20,296 bases of DNA from a virus. The stretch spans positions 3,864-24,159 of IMG/VR virus record IMGVR_UViG_3300030202_000791; one strand, given 5' to 3'. The position numbers were made by a program, and so were the translations under genes. Shown in pieces: positions 1,550 through 13,495 of the stretch. Within the stretch, counting starts at the first letter, position 1. Each line of letters begins with the position of its first letter. The notes under the pieces are model-generated. The model did no database searches and was not told where the DNA came from. It saw only the letters and a program-made list of their open reading frames with translations.

Positions 1550-1975
1550 TTATAAGGCTACGCCAACATTTCCAATATTTGGGCTCATTCTTGGTGATAA
1601 CATATTTAAGAACCCTTTATTACCTGCAGGTCCAAGATATGCACCTCCAACTCCACCAGTAATACCTCCAAGTAAAGCACCTTCTAAAGCTCTACCTGCT
1701 GCTGCTGATGGGTCTTCTGCGAAATCAGGAAGACCATATATTCCTGCACCACCTACTGCACCACCTATAGCTCCTCTAGCAGCTAATCCCATACCTGCAC
1801 CTTTTGCAACACTTTGTGCTAAGAAACCTGCACCTCCACCTGCTAATAATGGAGCTAAGTACCCAATGTTTGCTACATTTCTAGCAGCACTTTCAGAACT
1901 TGTTTCTCCAAAAAACTCTTCACCTCTACTTACAGGTCTACCACTATCTGGAAGTAAACCAAATGTCAAATGCAA
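1550..1975 (-). CDS. Gly/Ala-rich ejection-like protein, downstream part of a frame-disrupted gene
   Basis: This frame encodes up to 141 residues from a TTG at 1975. An in-frame TAG lies two codons upstream and there is no good Shine-Dalgarno sequence, so an independent start here is weak. The N-terminal stretch FGLLPDSGRP followed by SRGEEFFGE reads as a continuation of the upstream 59-residue frame (1944-2123): skipping one base near 1964 would join them into a product of about 190 residues. Beyond residue 35 the protein is dominated by Gly/Ala hydrophobic segments (about 36-80 and 97-115), like membrane-inserting or membrane-channel virion proteins. The stop at 1550 abuts the next start. 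Probably a DNA-ejection or internal virion protein. Whether the break is natural, programmed or an assembly error cannot be told from the sequence. Confidence 0.6.
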   Translation of the reverse strand: MHLTFGLLPDSGRPVSRGEEFFGETSSESAARNVANIGYLAPLLAGGGAGFLAQSVAKGAGMGLAARGAIGGAVGGAGIYGLPDFAEDPSAAAGRALEGALLGGITGGVGGAYLGPAGNKGFLNMLSPRMSPNIGNVGVAL

Positions 1976-2123
1976 ACTTTTCTAAAGCTTTGCTTTCAGG
2001 CTTAAATGGTAAATTTAACCTATAAGCTAAAAATGCTATTTGCTTAGCTTGTGAATCTGTATATTGTTTAGGGTCTTGATTATATCTAGCTACTATACCT
2101 CTAGCTTGTTGTTCTGGATTCAT
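1944..2123 (-). CDS. N-terminal part of frame-disrupted ejection-like protein (59 aa)
   Basis: The ATG at 2123 has a good ribosome binding site (AGGAG about 7 bases upstream), so translation very likely begins here. The 59-residue frame ends at TAG 1944-1946. Residues 8-42 carry a pattern (RYNQDPKQYTDSQ, later FKP) shared with the N terminus of the gene starting at 1549. The last residues after KFAFD are out of keeping with the rest, and the +1 frame continues sensibly as FGLLPDSGRP. I read this as the first quarter of one gene whose remainder is the 1550-1975 frame. As it stands, normal translation gives a short peptide that overlaps the next frame by 32 bases. Confidence 0.6.
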   Translation of the reverse strand: MNPEQQARGIVARYNQDPKQYTDSQAKQIAFLAYRLNLPFKPESKALEKFAFDIWFTSR

Positions 2124-4025: not shown

Positions 4026-5015
4026 TTACCTCATCCCTTGTCTATAATTTGCCATAGGTAGTCCTAAATAATTTCCTGCAATAGACTGTGGTGAAGGTAC
4101 TGTTGGTCCTACCAATTGGTTAGGATTCATAACTGATTCAAATAAATCTGCTCTATTTTGCATATCACTAGATAAACCAGTACTTTTTAATTGGTCTACT
4201 AAAGATTGACTAGGGTCAAATCCTAAAGCTTGTGCTAGTAATGTATTTTGATTTGCTGTACCACTATAACCTGCAAATGCTGGTAATGTTGCATCTGGAG
4301 ATAAATCACGTAATACATTCACAGCTCCTTCTGGTGGTCTACCCATTGGGTCCCCACTTACATTTGGTCCTATTGCATCTAATGCAGTTCCACCTAATTG
4401 TAACATTTTATTTGCATTATCTGCAGATATAACTGCATCTTGTGCTAATGTAGCTCTATTTGATATATTAGTTCCTACATTAGAAATAGCTTGTATTAAA
4501 GGATTTTGTGCAAATCCAGATTTAAATCTTGATATTCTATCTGGTAATGTTTGACCAAATTCATTTAGTACACTACCAATACCATCTTGAGATAATTGTT
4601 TTCCTATCTCAGTATTTCCAAGAGTATATGCACTAAATGCTCTACTAGCAGCTTTACCAAACCTTGAATCATCTAAAGCATCAGATGCAGCACTTTGAGA
4701 ATCTTGTATATCACGTGTTTGATCTCTATATAATTTGCCTTCTTCTAATTTATCAAACTTTCTTTCAGCTCTTTTACCACCTATTGATTGTCCTATATAA
4801 GAACCTAAACCAGCACCTAGAGCTAATCCTAATGGACCAAGACTAGTCAATGCTAATGCACCAGCACCACTACCAAATAAGTCAAGTAAATTCATTTTAT
4901 TAGATTTACTTTGTATGTTTGATTGAGCTGTACCCATTTGTGTATTTACTCTTTGTCCTTCATCTCTTTTTAAGATTGTTTTTTTTACGTCCTTAGCACT
5001 TGTATATATTGACAT
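4026..5015 (-). CDS. Ejection-like virion protein with glycine-rich hydrophobic segment
   Basis: A 329-residue protein with an ATG behind a strong GGGAGGA site. After a basic N-terminal 40 residues comes a Gly/Ala/Leu-rich hydrophobic stretch at about 42-80 (for example LGLALGAGLGSYIGQSIGG), which resembles a glycine-zipper membrane-insertion segment. The remainder is polar and helical with several NPxQ/NPL motifs and a Pro/Gly-rich end. The start overlaps the stop of the 73-residue gene by one base. Such proteins commonly follow the nozzle gene in podoviruses and enter the host with the DNA. That role is inferred here; no family match can be confirmed. Confidence 0.75.
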   Translation of the reverse strand: MSIYTSAKDVKKTILKRDEGQRVNTQMGTAQSNIQSKSNKMNLLDLFGSGAGALALTSLGPLGLALGAGLGSYIGQSIGGKRAERKFDKLEEGKLYRDQTRDIQDSQSAASDALDDSRFGKAASRAFSAYTLGNTEIGKQLSQDGIGSVLNEFGQTLPDRISRFKSGFAQNPLIQAISNVGTNISNRATLAQDAVISADNANKMLQLGGTALDAIGPNVSGDPMGRPPEGAVNVLRDLSPDATLPAFAGYSGTANQNTLLAQALGFDPSQSLVDQLKSTGLSSDMQNRADLFESVMNPNQLVGPTVPSPQSIAGNYLGLPMANYRQGMR

Positions 5016-5236
5016 TATATTAAATCCTCCCAGTTGTTAGTTTTAGCTTCTTCTATAGCTATAAATTCATTATAGTATAAATTTGTTCCCTTTTTTACGT
5101 ATAATCGTAAATTTTGATTAGGGGCTAAAACATATACTTGTTCCTCATCATTCAATTGGTCAGGTGAAGGAGGTGTATTTAAAAACACAACTTTACGTTG
5201 ACCTAAATTTCTTAATCTTCTTTCTATACTATCCAC
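5015..5236 (-). CDS. Small conserved-looking phage protein (73 aa)
   Basis: Starts with GTG at 5236, overlapping the end of the nozzle gene by 8 bases, with a GAGAG ribosome binding site about 8 bases upstream. It encodes MDSIERRLRNLGQRKVVF followed by NTPPSPDQLNDEEQVYV, then a basic-aromatic stretch (LRLYVKKGTNLYYNEF) and an acidic end. I recall similar short proteins next to tail genes in marine phages, but have no name or function for them. The order of a short helix, a proline-rich linker and beta-like strands suggests a small structural accessory protein. Its tight overlaps on both sides show co-translation with the nozzle and ejection genes. Confidence 0.75.
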   Translation of the reverse strand: MDSIERRLRNLGQRKVVFLNTPPSPDQLNDEEQVYVLAPNQNLRLYVKKGTNLYYNEFIAIEEAKTNNWEDLI

Positions 5237-7800: not shown

Positions 7801-8108
7801 TTCATATCATAGATTAAATCTCTTAATCTAATTATTTCAGCTTCATGTTTTGCCATCTCTCTTTCAAGAAAACGAAGAGAGGTATTTTGTATGTGGTCTG
7901 AACTTATAGGCTGGTCCTGTGAAGAGGAAATTCCTTTTTGAATAGCATCAATATGTTGACTATTATTAGATGTTATTGTTTCCAAAAAACTAATTCTGGA
8001 ATCCAACTGACTGTAACCCCAAACTCCAAGTACGATTGCAGTAATTATTTGAATGAGAAAACTGAGGCTGAATTTTATTCCAGAGCTCTCTTTTAACTCT
8101 GTAGTCAT
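7797..8108 (-). CDS. Single-membrane-segment coiled-coil protein (i-spanin- or holin-like)
   Basis: A 103-residue protein behind a GGAGAG ribosome binding site. Residues about 12-31 are a hydrophobic helix (FSLSFLIQIITAIVLGVWGY). The remainder is polar with heptad-like hydrophobic spacing in the last 30 residues (FLEREMAKHEAEIIRLRDLI). A short cytoplasmic N terminus, one membrane segment and a coiled-coil exterior is the topology of inner-membrane spanins, and also of some single-pass holin-like proteins. It closes the lysis module, overlapping the metallophosphoesterase by 4 bases. I cannot decide between these roles, because no conserved spanin signature exists. Confidence 0.65.
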   Translation of the reverse strand: MTTELKESSGIKFSLSFLIQIITAIVLGVWGYSQLDSRISFLETITSNNSQHIDAIQKGISSSQDQPISSDHIQNTSLRFLEREMAKHEAEIIRLRDLIYDMK

Positions 8109-8863
8109 TTAATTAACTCTCCATTTAATGATGTTCTACCATCTATAATAGTCATAACATTTAAATTAAAGAAACCATCTTTATATATATCTAGTATTGC
8201 CATATTATGTGTCCAATTAGTAGCTCTATTTTTTAAAAATTCTTTATTCATATCACATAAGCATCCTAAAGAATGTGCCATCTTTGCACCATCCAAGTGT
8301 GAAACAACACTTTTAATTGCATCATGAGTGTGTCCATAAATAATATTAACTCCCAAATTTTGGACATGAGACCTTGTATGGTTAATACCAGACCAATGAC
8401 CCCCATGGTATGCATACAGTTTACTATTAAGAATTTTAAATTCAAGACCATAATCATACCACTTGTAACCACGTTCTTTAATTCGTAATACTTTTTTACT
8501 TCCATATTCTGTTAGATAAGGATTCTCTAATACAAAGTTATCAAACCAAACTTCATGATTGCCTTGTGCAAATAGTTTAGTCTTAACATTTACTTTATCT
8601 AATACCTCATCAATCCTATCAAAATGTTTATTTACTTCCTTAACTTCTTTTTTAATAGAAGGTAGTTGATACTCCAAAGGAGGTCTTTTCTTTTTTTTCC
8701 ACATCCAATGTGAAACTGAATTTCCTTCAGCAATATCTCCTATGCAAAGAAAAGCAGATGGTTTAACTATTTCCAATACTTTTAAAGCACACCTAAATGC
8801 CTTTTCATCATGTAGTGGAAAATGTAAATCAGGAAATATTACAACTTGTTCTACAGCCTTCAT
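8105..8863 (-). CDS. Calcineurin-like metallophosphoesterase
   Basis: A 252-residue cytosolic-type protein with the full metal-binding motif set of the calcineurin-like phosphoesterase fold in order: D12-x-H14 (FPDLHFP), G42-D43 (CIGDIAEGN), G101-N-H-E104 (AQGNHEVW), H153 (AYHGGHW) and G177-H-T-H180 (IYGHTHD). These bind the two-metal centre, so the enzyme is predicted to be active. Its substrate (nucleic acid, nucleotide or phosphoprotein) is not shown by the sequence. It overlaps the endolysin gene by 4 bases upstream and the membrane protein by 4 bases downstream. A phosphoesterase gene inside a lysis cassette is unusual enough to note. It may be a passenger gene expressed late. A role in nucleic-acid processing is possible but unproven. 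Confidence 0.9.
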   Translation of the reverse strand: MKAVEQVVIFPDLHFPLHDEKAFRCALKVLEIVKPSAFLCIGDIAEGNSVSHWMWKKKKRPPLEYQLPSIKKEVKEVNKHFDRIDEVLDKVNVKTKLFAQGNHEVWFDNFVLENPYLTEYGSKKVLRIKERGYKWYDYGLEFKILNSKLYAYHGGHWSGINHTRSHVQNLGVNIIYGHTHDAIKSVVSHLDGAKMAHSLGCLCDMNKEFLKNRATNWTHNMAILDIYKDGFFNLNVMTIIDGRTSLNGELIK

Positions 8864-9255
8864 ACATCTCTGATTTCAAAATGAGGTAGATCGTCAAAGT
8901 TATTATCTTTAACTTGGGTATCCATATCCCAATCTCCTCCCCATCTGATTTTTAATCCCATTTGATAAGCTATACCTACAACATAACCTGCAAAGTATGT
9001 AAATCTTTCTCTATCATTCCAATCAATTGGATATGGAGCTACGTCTACTGCTTTACTTGGTGTTGCATTATGCTTACCTTTGGGATATTTCAGCTTTGAT
9101 TTTCCTTCATCAAATAGTTTATTTTGCCTATCTTTACTTCTATGACCTTCAATAATTGTACAGTCAAACTTTTTTACTACACGTAAAAACAAATCTTGTA
9201 AACGCTTATCACAAGTCTCTAGTTTAGATAAAGATTTTTTACTAAATCTAGGCAT
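8860..9255 (-). CDS. M15 family peptidase endolysin
   Basis: A 131-residue protein that probably cuts the peptide stems of peptidoglycan (L-alanyl-D-glutamate or DD-peptidase type, as in phage T5 lysin). Zinc ligands are visible: H62 and D71 in KHNATPSKAVDVAP, and H125 in LPHFE. An acidic catalytic pair D121-D122 lies just ahead and a WGGDW motif (105-109) sits between, all typical of M15. The first 40 residues include the family pattern IIEGHRSKDRQN. The ATG has an AAGGA site and overlaps the previous stop (TAATG). There is no signal peptide, so release would depend on the membrane protein(s) encoded next to it. The length is normal for a single-domain phage M15 enzyme. Confidence 0.92.
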   Translation of the reverse strand: MPRFSKKSLSKLETCDKRLQDLFLRVVKKFDCTIIEGHRSKDRQNKLFDEGKSKLKYPKGKHNATPSKAVDVAPYPIDWNDRERFTYFAGYVVGIAYQMGLKIRWGGDWDMDTQVKDNNFDDLPHFEIRDV

Positions 9256-9705: not shown

Positions 9706-9828
9706 TTAATACCTAGTACTTACTTTCTTATTACTAGGTCCTTTTTTCTTACCCATTTTCATTTTAGAACTTTTTCTCACTTTGACTTTCTTAGGCATTT
9801 TACCAGCCTTCGGTTTTCCATACGCCAT
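9706..9828 (-). CDS. Very basic micro-protein (40 aa)
   Basis: This frame is too short for most gene callers but well supported. The ATG at 9828 has AAGGAG about 8 bases upstream, embedded in the 3' end of the preceding gene, and the stop at 9706 lies 2 bases before the holin-like gene. It encodes MAYGKPKAGKMPKKVKVRKS and then a lysine-rich tail ending in STRY. By my count 14 Lys and 2 Arg among 40 residues, with no acidic residue. The composition is protamine-like. It belongs to a run of four lysine-rich genes and is probably a nucleic-acid-binding or virion-packaged peptide, though function cannot be read from sequence. Confidence 0.65.
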   Translation of the reverse strand: MAYGKPKAGKMPKKVKVRKSSKMKMGKKKGPSNKKVSTRY

Positions 9829-9829
9829 T

Positions 9830-10039
9830 TTACTTTCTCCTTTTCTTAGCTTGTTTAACACGAGATTTTTCTACTGCTTTTAAATTAATTTTTTTACCTG
9901 CTTTATATAGCTTTGCAGTTCTTTTTATTTCTGCAGCTTTTTTCCTAGGGTTCTTAGAACCTTTGGTGTACTTAGCAGGAACTCCATGTTTATATGGTTG
10001 CTTCCTTTTACTTTTTCTTTTTTGTTTTTTTCTTTGCAC
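9830..10039 (-). CDS. Very basic small protein (69 aa, GTG start)
   Basis: The frame starts at GTG 10039 inside the end of the previous gene (32-base overlap). No in-frame ATG exists further in, so the exact start is uncertain; coupling or re-initiation from the upstream gene is likely. The product is MQRKKQKRKSKRKQPYKHG, then a KYTKGSKNPRKKAAEIKR segment and a tail ending KQAKKRRK. I count 31 Lys or Arg among 69 residues and only 2 acidic residues. The AAEIKRTAKLYKAGKKI helix resembles short proteins I recall from marine phages, but I cannot name a family. A role in binding DNA or RNA, or in the virion, is plausible. Confidence 0.65.
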   Translation of the reverse strand: MQRKKQKRKSKRKQPYKHGVPAKYTKGSKNPRKKAAEIKRTAKLYKAGKKINLKAVEKSRVKQAKKRRK

Positions 10040-10274
10040 CTTTTCTCAAATCTGTATCATGTTTTCTACTACCTCGAATGTAAGAATTTACTCTACCCAT
10101 AGCCCATGCTGCCATAGGTACATTTCTACTACCACTAGATAAATATGCAGCTTGACCTCTTTTATATACTTTCTTTAAAGTACCAAGAGCTATGCCAGAA
10201 CTTTTAGCTTTACCAGCTAGTCCTTTACCACCACTACTTTTTTTCTTTACTGGTTTTTTCTTCTTTACTGCCAT
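10008..10274 (-). CDS. Lysine-rich small phage protein (88 aa) with conserved-looking core
   Basis: The best start is ATG 10274 (MAVKKKKPVKKKSSGG). The frame is open further upstream to 10322 but then overlaps the previous gene much more, and an extra ATG at 10286 is also possible. The core GTLKKVYKRGQAAYLSSGSR and NVPMAAWAMGRVNSYIRG resembles a motif (an aromatic start, then W-x-M-x-RVNS-I-x-G, then DxDL) that I recall in small phage proteins of unknown function. Both ends are poly-lysine. It overlaps its upstream neighbour by 41 bases and its downstream neighbour by 32, always within A-rich runs that code for lysine. A nucleic-acid-binding role is possible; the conserved core suggests a folded domain. 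Confidence 0.65.
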   Translation of the reverse strand: MAVKKKKPVKKKSSGGKGLAGKAKSSGIALGTLKKVYKRGQAAYLSSGSRNVPMAAWAMGRVNSYIRGSRKHDTDLRKGAKKKTKKKK

Positions 10275-10410
10275 TACATTTCCCATCTTCACAACATTCT
10301 GATAAAGCTTGTTTATACCCAATCAATTGATTTTGCTCTGCACTTAATGCTTGTATTTGTTGTGGTATTTCTTTTAATCGTCTATTAATATCTTCTTTTT
10401 TTAATGCCAT
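10234..10410 (-). CDS. Small helical protein with CC-x4-C motif (58 aa)
   Basis: The start is chosen at ATG 10410 because it has AGAGGA just upstream; a longer frame to 10500 would run through the previous gene. It encodes MALKKEDINRRLKEIPQQIQ, then a Gln/Leu helix (ALSAEQNQLIGYKQALSE), then CCEDGKCNG and a charged Lys/Glu tail. The first 40 residues look like a short coiled coil. The three cysteines might bind a metal or form disulphides. I do not recognise a family. The start lies 1 base after the upstream stop. Confidence 0.65.
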   Translation of the reverse strand: MALKKEDINRRLKEIPQQIQALSAEQNQLIGYKQALSECCEDGKCNGSKEEKTSKEKK

Positions 10411-10411
10411 A

Positions 10412-10732
10412 CTATCCTCTTTTTTTTTTAGATTTATTTCTTTTACTAATTGCTTTAGCTTTTTTCTTAGCATCAACTTTACTACTTGCACCCCAAGCAT
10501 TCAATGATAATAAAAGTCTAGTCTTTTCTTTCTTACCAGTCTTTTTATTTACTTTATACTCAGGACCTTTAGCTCCACCCATTCTAGCTAAGAAAGATGC
10601 TCTTCTAGGATTATCACCACTCTTAACAGGTGCTTTTAATTTACCACCTTTATAAGAAGCTCTACCCTTAGCATTTAATCCACCTTTAGGATTCTTACCT
10701 TCTTTTCTTTGCCATGCTGGAGTTTTAGCCAC
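10412..10732 (-). CDS. Basic small phage protein, DUF6321-like (106 aa)
   Basis: I place the start at GTG 10732 (GGAGA 8 bases upstream; one-base overlap with the previous TAG), giving MAKTPAWQRKEGKNPKGG. The frame is open to a TTG at 10747, but that start has no such support. The sequence TPAWQRKEGKNPKGGLN, then KAPVKSGDNPRRASFLARMG, then KTRLLLSLNAWGASSKV matches a short basic family I recall from marine phages and cyanophages as DUF6321. That name is from memory and unverified. The end is poly-lysine (KRNKSKKKRG). Function is unknown; the many basic residues and PRR motif suggest nucleic-acid contact. Confidence 0.75.
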   Translation of the reverse strand: MAKTPAWQRKEGKNPKGGLNAKGRASYKGGKLKAPVKSGDNPRRASFLARMGGAKGPEYKVNKKTGKKEKTRLLLSLNAWGASSKVDAKKKAKAISKRNKSKKKRG

Positions 10733-10974
10733 TAATACAATCTCCAATCATTTGCTAAATTATTCCAATCTTTATACTTAGTTCTATTTGTATCTTTTTT
10801 TACAATTTCAAACTGCTCATGTGTATAACACCAAAGCCTTGTAGAATCTTGATTAAACAAAACTACTCTATTATAAAAATGACCTTTACCATTTTGATCT
10901 CTTAGTATATCCATATTATTTACTCCATTACAACTTAAAGATAATAGAATAGGTATGAATAATTTTTTAAGCAT
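10732..10974 (-). CDS. Putative small lipoprotein (80 aa)
   Basis: The N terminus (MLKKLFIPILLSLSC) has two lysines, a hydrophobic stretch and a cysteine at residue 15: a signal peptide with a loose lipobox (LSLSC rather than the ideal LAGC). The mature part of about 65 residues is polar, with aromatic and charged residues (HFYNRVVLF, RLWCYTHEQFEIV, DWNNLANDW). I chose ATG 10974; a TTG at 10980 has a better-spaced AAGGA site, so the start may be two codons earlier. The gene overlaps the fibre gene's end. An outer-membrane lipoprotein of this size just ahead of a lysis module could be an o-spanin or a superinfection-exclusion protein; neither is shown. Confidence 0.65.
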   Translation of the reverse strand: MLKKLFIPILLSLSCNGVNNMDILRDQNGKGHFYNRVVLFNQDSTRLWCYTHEQFEIVKKDTNRTKYKDWNNLANDWRLY

Positions 10975-12268
10975 CTTCAAGAACTTTTATCCTTGCACTT
11001 AATTCTTGTATTGCTTTTAATGACAATACAAATACATCTTGATAGTTCAAACCTAAATACCCATCTTCATTTGCTATTGCAGAAAGTGGTAATATTTTTT
11101 GCACTTCATTAGCTGAAAGACCATAAAACTTTTTATCTTCAGCTACTTCATCTCCATCTATATTTGTGGATTTTGGAAAGTCATTTGTATTTGGGTCTTT
11201 CTTTTGATATTCACCAATCTTAGTAAGTGTATTTATTTTATCAGTTGCATTTTCAAAAACATTCCAATTTTGTTTTAATCTTTCATCAGAACTTATAGCT
11301 GAAAAACTTGTTGCTCCTGAAGTTAATTCTACACCTCCTGAGTTTGAAATTACCTGTACTATTGTACTATTAATAGATTTGAGAATATTTGGATTTCCAC
11401 CACCTCCACTATATTCTGCTGAAGTAACTTGAAAAACACCATTAGCTTCATCCAAGAAAACAATCTGATTAACTGCATCTGTTCCTACAAATGTTATTGG
11501 TTTATATGATGTAGTTCCACCAGGGGCTAATCTTAATACTTCTGAAGAAACTGCATTACCATCAGTAATACTAAATCTTAATTCAGTTCCATTTTCTGAA
11601 GCACTCCATTGTGCATCACAAATAGCTTCTATCTGTGCACCTTCAGTAATAGTAGCCGAACCATCTTCAGCTCCTAAAAAAGTGATTGCACCAAGCCTAT
11701 CACCACTCTCCATTGTTGAACCATCATCTGTAATAAGTTGTATTTCTGCACCTGAAGTTGCACTACCTTCTGTTGATGTTTGAACTTTAAAACCAGGATT
11801 TGCTAATGCTCCAGTAATTGTAATACCTTGATTACTTGTAGTTAATCCTGGGGCTAACCTTAATACTTCAGAAGAGGAAGCGTTGCCATCAGTTATATTA
11901 AATCTTAATTCTGTTCCATTCTCACTTGCACTCCAATTATTATCACAAATAGCTTCTATTTCTGCACCCTGTGTAATTGTACTACTAGCATCTTCTGCTC
12001 CTGAAAATTCTATAACTCCTAATCTATGACCAGTTGCCATAGCAGCTCCATCATCAGATTGTAATATTAAAATTCCACCTTTATCTGCTGCAGATGCAGT
12101 AGGGTTGTCTACTACTATTGCTTCTGTTGAGACTTGTAATGCAAAAGTAGTGTCATTATCACCATCTTTAATATTTACTAAAGTAGCTCCATTACCTCCT
12201 CCATCTCTATCTACATGTAATAGTTGTTCGTAACTATTTGCTATTGTTTGTCCTGTTAAAGCTCCCAT
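10967..12268 (-). CDS. Tail fibre/appendage with C-terminal S74 self-cleaving chaperone domain
   Basis: A 433-residue protein with an AAGGAG site. Residues about 1-320 are beta-rich fibre repeats. The C-terminal ~110 residues are an intramolecular chaperone (Peptidase_S74): S327-D-E-R-L-K332 contains the Ser/Lys dyad, five residues apart as in endosialidase chaperones, with self-cleavage expected just before S327. Typical S74 patches follow: FYGLSANEVQKILP (381-394), GYLGLNYQDVFVLSLKAIQE (403-422) and a trailing coiled coil. The chaperone trimerises the fibre and is then cut off. The shaft contains a clear duplication of about 100 residues (see repeats). It is the likely receptor-binding or appendage protein of this phage. 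Confidence 0.85.
   Translation of the reverse strand: MGALTGQTIANSYEQLLHVDRDGGGNGATLVNIKDGDNDTTFALQVSTEAIVVDNPTASAADKGGILILQSDDGAAMATGHRLGVIEFSGAEDASSTITQGAEIEAICDNNWSASENGTELRFNITDGNASSSEVLRLAPGLTTSNQGITITGALANPGFKVQTSTEGSATSGAEIQLITDDGSTMESGDRLGAITFLGAEDGSATITEGAQIEAICDAQWSASENGTELRFSITDGNAVSSEVLRLAPGGTTSYKPITFVGTDAVNQIVFLDEANGVFQVTSAEYSGGGGNPNILKSINSTIVQVISNSGGVELTSGATSFSAISSDERLKQNWNVFENATDKINTLTKIGEYQKKDPNTNDFPKSTNIDGDEVAEDKKFYGLSANEVQKILPLSAIANEDGYLGLNYQDVFVLSLKAIQELSARIKVLEDA
11486..11791 (-). repeat. Second copy of internal fibre repeat
   Basis: Residues about 160-261 of the fibre protein. They match residues about 42-152 with a constant offset of 109 residues at the RLG, CD-x2-WSASENGTELRF and SSEVLRLAPG motifs. 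The copies differ at scattered positions. Confidence 0.8.
11813..12145 (-). repeat. First copy of internal fibre repeat
   Basis: Residues about 42-152 of the fibre protein. Shared blocks with the second copy: a DDG-x2-M-x2-G-x-RLG start, the EAICD-x2-WSASENGTELRF core, and an ITDGNA-x-SSEVLRLAPG end. It has about nine extra residues near its start compared with the second copy. Confidence 0.8.
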
Positions 12269-12413: not shown

Positions 12414-12758
12414 TTATGGACCAAAGTAAATTACTACTTTGTCTCCTGCTGTTTGTAAATCTAAGCTTAACCATCTACCATATATAGTTACACCTTTAGG
12501 AAAGGTATCACTATTTGCAACAGTTGCACCATTTGTGCCAGGGGCTGCTGCAGTTGTTCCATAATGAAAACTTGTTGATTCAGGTGTTAATGCTGCAAAT
12601 TCAACATCAGTTAACATTGTTATAGCAACAATAACTGAACCTGATGGTGGTGTATATAAATCTGTAGTATCTGTAAATGCTGCTCCAGTTTGACCTAGTG
12701 CTACATTTTGTGCTTCAACTACTGTATAATTTTGAGCTGAACTTTTTCCAATAGCCAT
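12414..12758 (-). CDS. Small beta-rich virion-module protein (114 aa)
   Basis: The ATG at 12758 has AAGGAG about 8 bases upstream. The sequence is rich in Thr, Ala, Val and Gly, with strands predicted throughout. The end, TFPKGVTIYGRWLSLDLQTA followed by GDKVVIYFGP, resembles short proteins I recall beside tail-fibre genes in marine phages. It has no signal or membrane segment. It is likely a small virion component, such as a decoration or fibre-linked beta-sandwich, judged from composition and its place immediately before the fibre gene. No family name can be given. Confidence 0.7.
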   Translation of the reverse strand: MAIGKSSAQNYTVVEAQNVALGQTGAAFTDTTDLYTPPSGSVIVAITMLTDVEFAALTPESTSFHYGTTAAAPGTNGATVANSDTFPKGVTIYGRWLSLDLQTAGDKVVIYFGP

Positions 12759-12916: not shown

Positions 12917-13347
12917 TCTTCATCCTTATCTCTTGTGCTATGTACTGTTGGTTCAAAGCCTTGTAATTTAATAACTGTCTTTTGAACTCTGCCAGTATTA
13001 GCATATCTTTTTCCTTCTATAACGCCTAAATTGTATTGACGTTCCCAATATGTTGCAGTTGATAAAGTATCTGGATTTAATTCATATCCTCTTTGTATAG
13101 CTTTAGCTACAACTGCATGTCTAAATTCTTCTGGAATATCTGGTTCTTCAGTATATCCTGTTGTTGTATTTGTAGTTCCTGTATCAGCAGCAACAAATTT
13201 ATTAGGTTTTTTAACTGCAAATATAGTTACAGTTTTAACTTCACTTGGTGAGTTATAAGATGTTGATGTATCACCAACTGATCTTGAGATAATTGCTATT
13301 GCATCTCTCTCAACATAATATGCAAAATTACGTTGACTACTTGGCAT
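12913..13347 (-). CDS. Head-tail connector/adaptor-like protein (144 aa)
   Basis: A 144-residue protein. The first half is beta-like (DAIAIISRSVGDT, EVKTVTIFAVKKPNKF). The second half has the helical pattern typical of phage connector C termini: PDIPEEFRHAVVAKAIQRGY, then TATYWERQYNLGVIEGKRYA. It follows another adaptor-like gene and a 52-residue ORF and overlaps both neighbours. I infer a role in the neck joining the portal to the tail. It could work together with the 89-residue protein, which looks like an N-terminal adaptor half. Confidence 0.65.
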   Translation of the reverse strand: MPSSQRNFAYYVERDAIAIISRSVGDTSTSYNSPSEVKTVTIFAVKKPNKFVAADTGTTNTTTGYTEEPDIPEEFRHAVVAKAIQRGYELNPDTLSTATYWERQYNLGVIEGKRYANTGRVQKTVIKLQGFEPTVHSTRDKDEE

Positions 13348-13495
13348 TCTTATGTTTCATCATTACAGAAAATTTAGCTGTTTTAGATGCTCCTTTATGT
13401 GGTTTATAAACACCTTTTGTTTTCATTAACTTATATGTAGTCTTTCCTGTTTTCATCCAATGAAAGCCTTTTGGGGCTGGTACTGATTTCATCAT
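13337..13495 (-). CDS. Lysine-rich micro-protein (52 aa)
   Basis: The ATG at 13495 overlaps the upstream TGA as ATGA (a second ATG follows at once) with GAGAGA upstream, and the frame ends at TAG 13337. It encodes MMKSVPAPKGFHWMKTGKTT, then YKLMKTKGVYKPHKGASKTA and KFSVMMKHKNAK. The repeating YKxx(K)PHKGA style and high lysine content look like a small phage protein I recall from marine phages, without known function. It is inserted between two adaptor-like genes and overlaps the next gene by 11 bases. Confidence 0.6.
   Translation of the reverse strand: MMKSVPAPKGFHWMKTGKTTYKLMKTKGVYKPHKGASKTAKFSVMMKHKNAK

Follow-up and report, generated by a model that had tools for sequence, protein, structure and literature searches.

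The window analysed here, a stretch of 20,296 nucleotides, spans bases 3864-24159 of a virus record that is 24,159 bases long, and carries on its minus strand the late genes of an uncultured tailed phage, including those for a large terminase, a portal protein, a major head protein and an 819-aa virion protein (Table 1). A search of 50,697 phage records gave no close isolate, the portal protein matching 3 of them at 24-25% identity and the head protein 5 at 24-26%. A broken gene lies among the late virion genes, between a 223-aa gene and a giant gene that runs past the window start. The record is a scaffold, in which ten N at C1:3854-3863 (L047:3854-3863) form a gap directly before the window start, about 2 kb away from the break; the frame of the giant gene is open on both sides of this gap.

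Table 1. Late-region features of the window and components of the broken gene (window positions)
Feature	Position	Strand	Match or remark
Large terminase, C-terminal part		-	phrog_38, 4e-35
Portal protein		-	phrog_156, 8e-59
Major head protein		-	phrog_1328, 2e-17
819-aa virion protein (tail-type gene)		-	phrog_3287, 2e-9
Upstream part of broken gene	1965..2123	-	53 family-like residues: two-helix module and start of third helix
Break point	1964..1965	-	1 nt (A, 1964) against 18 nt coding six residues in 22/22 relative contigs
Out-of-frame tail of the 59-codon ORF	1944..1964	-	IWFTSR, stop TAG at 1946-1944
Downstream part of the same gene, +1 frame	1550..1963	-	137 residues and stop
Next gene (giant), first 516 codons	2..1549	-	protein of at least 1804 aa; runs past window start and 10-N gap

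The late region has several further characteristics. On the minus strand, similarity to the relatives L002 and L003 changes abruptly at a boundary at 5015-5236: identity to L002/L003 is 92-97% for the 819-aa and 73-aa genes and only about 30-60% for the genes that follow the boundary (329, 403 and 223 aa, and the broken gene), a drop that would fit a swapped or fast-changing cassette. A series of short, very Lys/Arg-rich ORFs occupies 9706-10747 and 13337-13495 (minus strand), two of them matching DUF6321 (5e-16) and DUF5824 (2.5e-7). The protein encoded at 10967-12268 (minus strand) carries at its C-terminus a Peptidase_S74 domain (endosialidase chaperone; E 2.3e-6) and is probably a self-processing fibre. 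A metallophosphoesterase gene (PF00149, 5.6e-7) lies at 8105-8863 on the minus strand, adjoined by a weak M15-type endolysin candidate at 8860-9255.

Frames of the broken gene

The broken gene opens on the minus strand with an ORF of 59 codons (2123-1944), whose ATG is preceded by AATAGGAGTATAAT, a good Shine-Dalgarno sequence. The overlapping +1 frame (1975-1550, minus strand, 141 codons) opens with a TTG two codons past a TAG and is free of stops from that TAG, at 1984-1982, down to 1550. Between the last base of KFAFD, 1965, and the first of FGLLPDSGRP, 1963, lies the single base 1964, and the two parts together amount to 53 + 137 = 190 residues. These coordinates agree with the first-pass annotation, which had described a 59-residue frame with a strong Shine-Dalgarno sequence going on as FGLLPDSGRP in the +1 frame, a protein of about 190 residues once base 1964 is dropped, and a downstream frame with no convincing start. 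The TTG codons at 1975 and 1969, the first available starts of that frame, have indeed no good Shine-Dalgarno sequence. No N or odd bases are present near the break, and the Ala of KFAFD is not a sign of damage, since the relative L046 has Ala as well.

This is the only gene in the window for which two convincing ORFs match one ORF of a relative. The other double match concerns two stretches of 35-45 codons that overlap, in another frame, an intact gene at 12414-12758, and the remaining genes of the window align to their relatives with no break in frame.

Relatives and the missing nucleotides

A scan with the downstream part yielded one relative, L002, in which a single ORF of 195 codons matches both frames of the window. 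Eight further loci were found via the next gene, and profile A2 (eight relatives) led to 17 IMG/VR contigs, the first nine loci included. In each of these (17/17) a single ORF crosses the point, and six residues separate the KF..D/E and FG.L segments. A further scan, which made no use of the broken gene, took the N-terminal part of the next gene as its query and gave 19 IMG/VR contigs, 14 of them already known and 5 new (L061, L062, L063, L065, L066). In 19/19 the gene lies immediately upstream and is unbroken over the point, and the new contigs also have the six residues. Combined, the 22 distinct contigs carry one continuous frame in every case, with 18 nt, exactly six residues, where the window has 1 nt. 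This set contains near-copies (L007/L008; L004/L005/L042; L006/L032), and L039 and L045 run out at the contig edge further downstream than the break. The whole gene comprises about 175-360 codons in the relatives. Because a single ORF of the relatives matches both window frames, the frame split is more than chance, and the proposal of one gene in two frames, for which a comparison with homologues had been asked, is borne out by a continuous product in 22/22 contigs.

The cause suggested at first, a single surplus base at 1964, has to be abandoned together with the corresponding one-base insertion, since all 22 contigs have 18 nt against 1 nt in the window. Relative to these contigs, the gene is short of a net 17 nt within the third helix of the N-terminal region. 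The 17 nt are a net figure against the relatives, because a near-identical relative was not found and the direct parent sequence is not among them: the closest reach at most 64% amino-acid identity in the upstream half and 52% in the downstream half. Scans with the 53-residue upstream part, the 223-aa neighbour and the exact junction yielded no nearer relatives, the 53 pattern matches among genome contigs included no relative, and the 50,697 phage records gave no match for the broken gene or its giant neighbour. No relative has the same break (0/22). A continuous gene in 22/22 relatives and a break in one genome constitute the pattern of a lone indel frameshift, and the option of an indel, by mutation or in assembly, is supported.

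The six missing residues correspond to residues 56-61 of L002, inside a predicted helix (48-63) of a structure model with a mean pLDDT of 56.4 overall, usable only for about residues 1-70. The third residue of this linker is Asp in 22/22 contigs and is invariant in the 14-row alignment (A3), from which L008, L032 and L042 of the 17 were excluded as near-copies. Solved structures gave nothing convincing for the protein (best E 0.63). The product of the broken gene and the giant protein begin with paralogous modules of about 40-70 residues (hhalign probability 93.4%, E 2.5e-7), which are nearly equal in spacing over this stretch, where the alignment has one single-residue gap; the module shared by both genes is also seen in L062, L063, L065 and L066. 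It could be a signal that virion-packaged proteins have in common.

Preservation and expression of the downstream half

With conserved columns defined as those conserved in at least 12/14 relatives, the window keeps 20/24 in the upstream half and 25/30 in the downstream half, that is 0.83 in both, compared with 0.79-1.00 for the 14 relatives upstream and 0.81-1.00 for the 12 that reach through the downstream half. Third-position GC is 0.15 and 0.11 in the two halves and 0.15 in the portal gene. The suggestion that the gene is decaying is therefore not supported as regards advanced decay, with which a downstream half as conserved as the upstream one is at odds. In a random-substitution count the downstream half stayed stop-free in 40% of trials at 0.05 substitutions per site and in 4% at 0.2; an old neutral remnant is therefore unlikely, and the count gives no closer dating of the event. 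As the halves are equally preserved, the event may be recent, may be absent from the living phage or, less likely, may have been compensated; we infer that it is recent.

A rival reading is that the ribosome changes frame (+1, or -2) in 1981-1947, as a programmed or a corrective event that fuses the halves, for which a stop-free downstream frame, conserved as well as the upstream half, and a short overlap between the two stops that permits a shift can be invoked. We regard it as very unlikely, since the gene is continuous in 22/22 relatives, none of which shifts here, and since a product made by a one-base skip would be six residues short of the family length, the shortening falling in the middle of a predicted helix and removing the constant Asp. 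Stimulatory RNA structure is not always required for +1 shifting, and the local RNA fold is ordinary (z -0.68; 48/200 shuffles as stable). The zero-frame codons ahead of the TAG are TTT ACT TCC AGA, so that AGA, and not CUU or UCC, precedes the stop, and no CUU-stop or UCC-stop site exists in the overlap, as had been noticed at the outset in the form of a missing classic slippery motif. Stop-codon forward-shift sites have been described (PMC10885494, PMC5009743), and the authors of PRFect, in their account of motifs, state that most recorded forward sites have CUU or UCC directly ahead of the stop, and also list simple runs of three or four identical bases among the forward motifs (PMC10885494). 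The overlap does contain runs of three T and, at its very start, one run of four A, which count for little because this sequence is AT-rich and such runs are common in it. A break conserved across related genes, as expected of a frameshift gene, occurs in 0/22 relative contigs. A programmed +1 shift, which the first-pass annotation had listed among its options, is accordingly rejected on the absence of a known stop-type site, of unusual RNA structure and of conservation.

It is equally improbable that the locus has split into two genes, one being the 59-codon ORF and the other using a coupled start at TTG 1975/1969 or at ATG 1792. The stop at 1946-1944 overlaps the second frame and an AGG lies seven bases upstream of ATG 1792, which would suit such an arrangement; against it stand the poor ribosome sites of both TTG codons, the loss of 57 residues from ATG 1792, including the best conserved stretch, RP.SRGE...GET, and the absence of any split in the relatives. 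A broader proposition, that the 17-nt loss is fixed and tolerated, either with low-level shifting or restart yielding enough of a protein six residues shorter or with the halves acting as separate virion proteins, is also improbable, if slightly less so.

Origin of the break and comparison with known systems

We propose, with a probability of roughly 86%, that the break is a lone, non-programmed event in which a net 17 nt were lost, whether by recent deletion from the phage molecules that were sequenced or through a fault in library or assembly. Ribosomes starting at 2123 would stop after 59 codons, leaving the remaining 137 codons out of frame and with no good start, and no full protein would be made from the broken gene. 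Two considerations weigh against this explanation: a stop-free downstream half would also fit continued expression, and the gene is kept in all relatives, so that its loss might be lethal to the phage, a point rather in favour of an artefact or some form of rescue.

Of the two forms of this explanation, a real and recent deletion, whereby the genome or a fraction of the population makes only the 59-residue fragment, has in our estimation about an even chance. It is consistent with the clean bases around the break and with the divergence from the relatives, which places both sides in one gene, and it is rare for a k-mer assembler to introduce a 17-nt loss that no read contains; the intact gene in 22/22 relative contigs is the argument against it, as the loss would probably be costly. 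That the phage has the 17 nt and the record lost them, by a chimeric read or an erroneous join where coverage was low, is a less probable though serious alternative. It would agree with a scaffold gap about 2 kb away, with the otherwise preserved gene and with the singleton nature of the break; conversely, a 17-nt loss is unusual as an assembly error, and the unbroken state of all other window genes speaks against generally poor sequence.

The break itself looks ordinary rather than like a special translation signal, and the case calls for caution, in that a frame break in a lone metagenome record could be taken for a +1 recoding site until the relatives revealed 17 missing nucleotides. A by-product of the comparison is an undescribed, well conserved phage protein family adjoining a giant late protein, with an N-terminal module common to both. 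The description of the gene as ejection-like is plausible from gene order, and no family library names the protein, for which Pfam and PHROGs gave no significant family match. The gene is located among the late virion genes, where the tail-type 819-aa gene and Gln-rich genes precede it and the giant gene, of at least 1804 codons, comes next, and this order suggests a role in DNA ejection.

The gene order resembles that of the T7-like internal virion (ejection) proteins, with small genes after a tail-type gene and then a giant protein gene, the latter having a weak match to phrog_342 (E 0.0071); the difference is that the product of the broken gene has no significant Pfam or PHROGs family and no match in the 50,697 phage records. 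With the prfB-type +1 programmed frameshift, in the features given for it in PMC5009743 and PMC10885494, the locus shares a short upstream frame and a long downstream +1 frame, but it has no CUU_U-stop site, its break is not conserved and its relatives need no shift. The closest parallel in kind is with the 'singletons' of PMC3711429, whose treatment of lone frame transitions validated by homologues expects sequencing errors or recent indels: the change here amounts to a net 17 nt rather than one base or a homopolymer slip, and in common with those cases the locus presents a break in one genome, a continuous gene in the relatives and no recoding signal.
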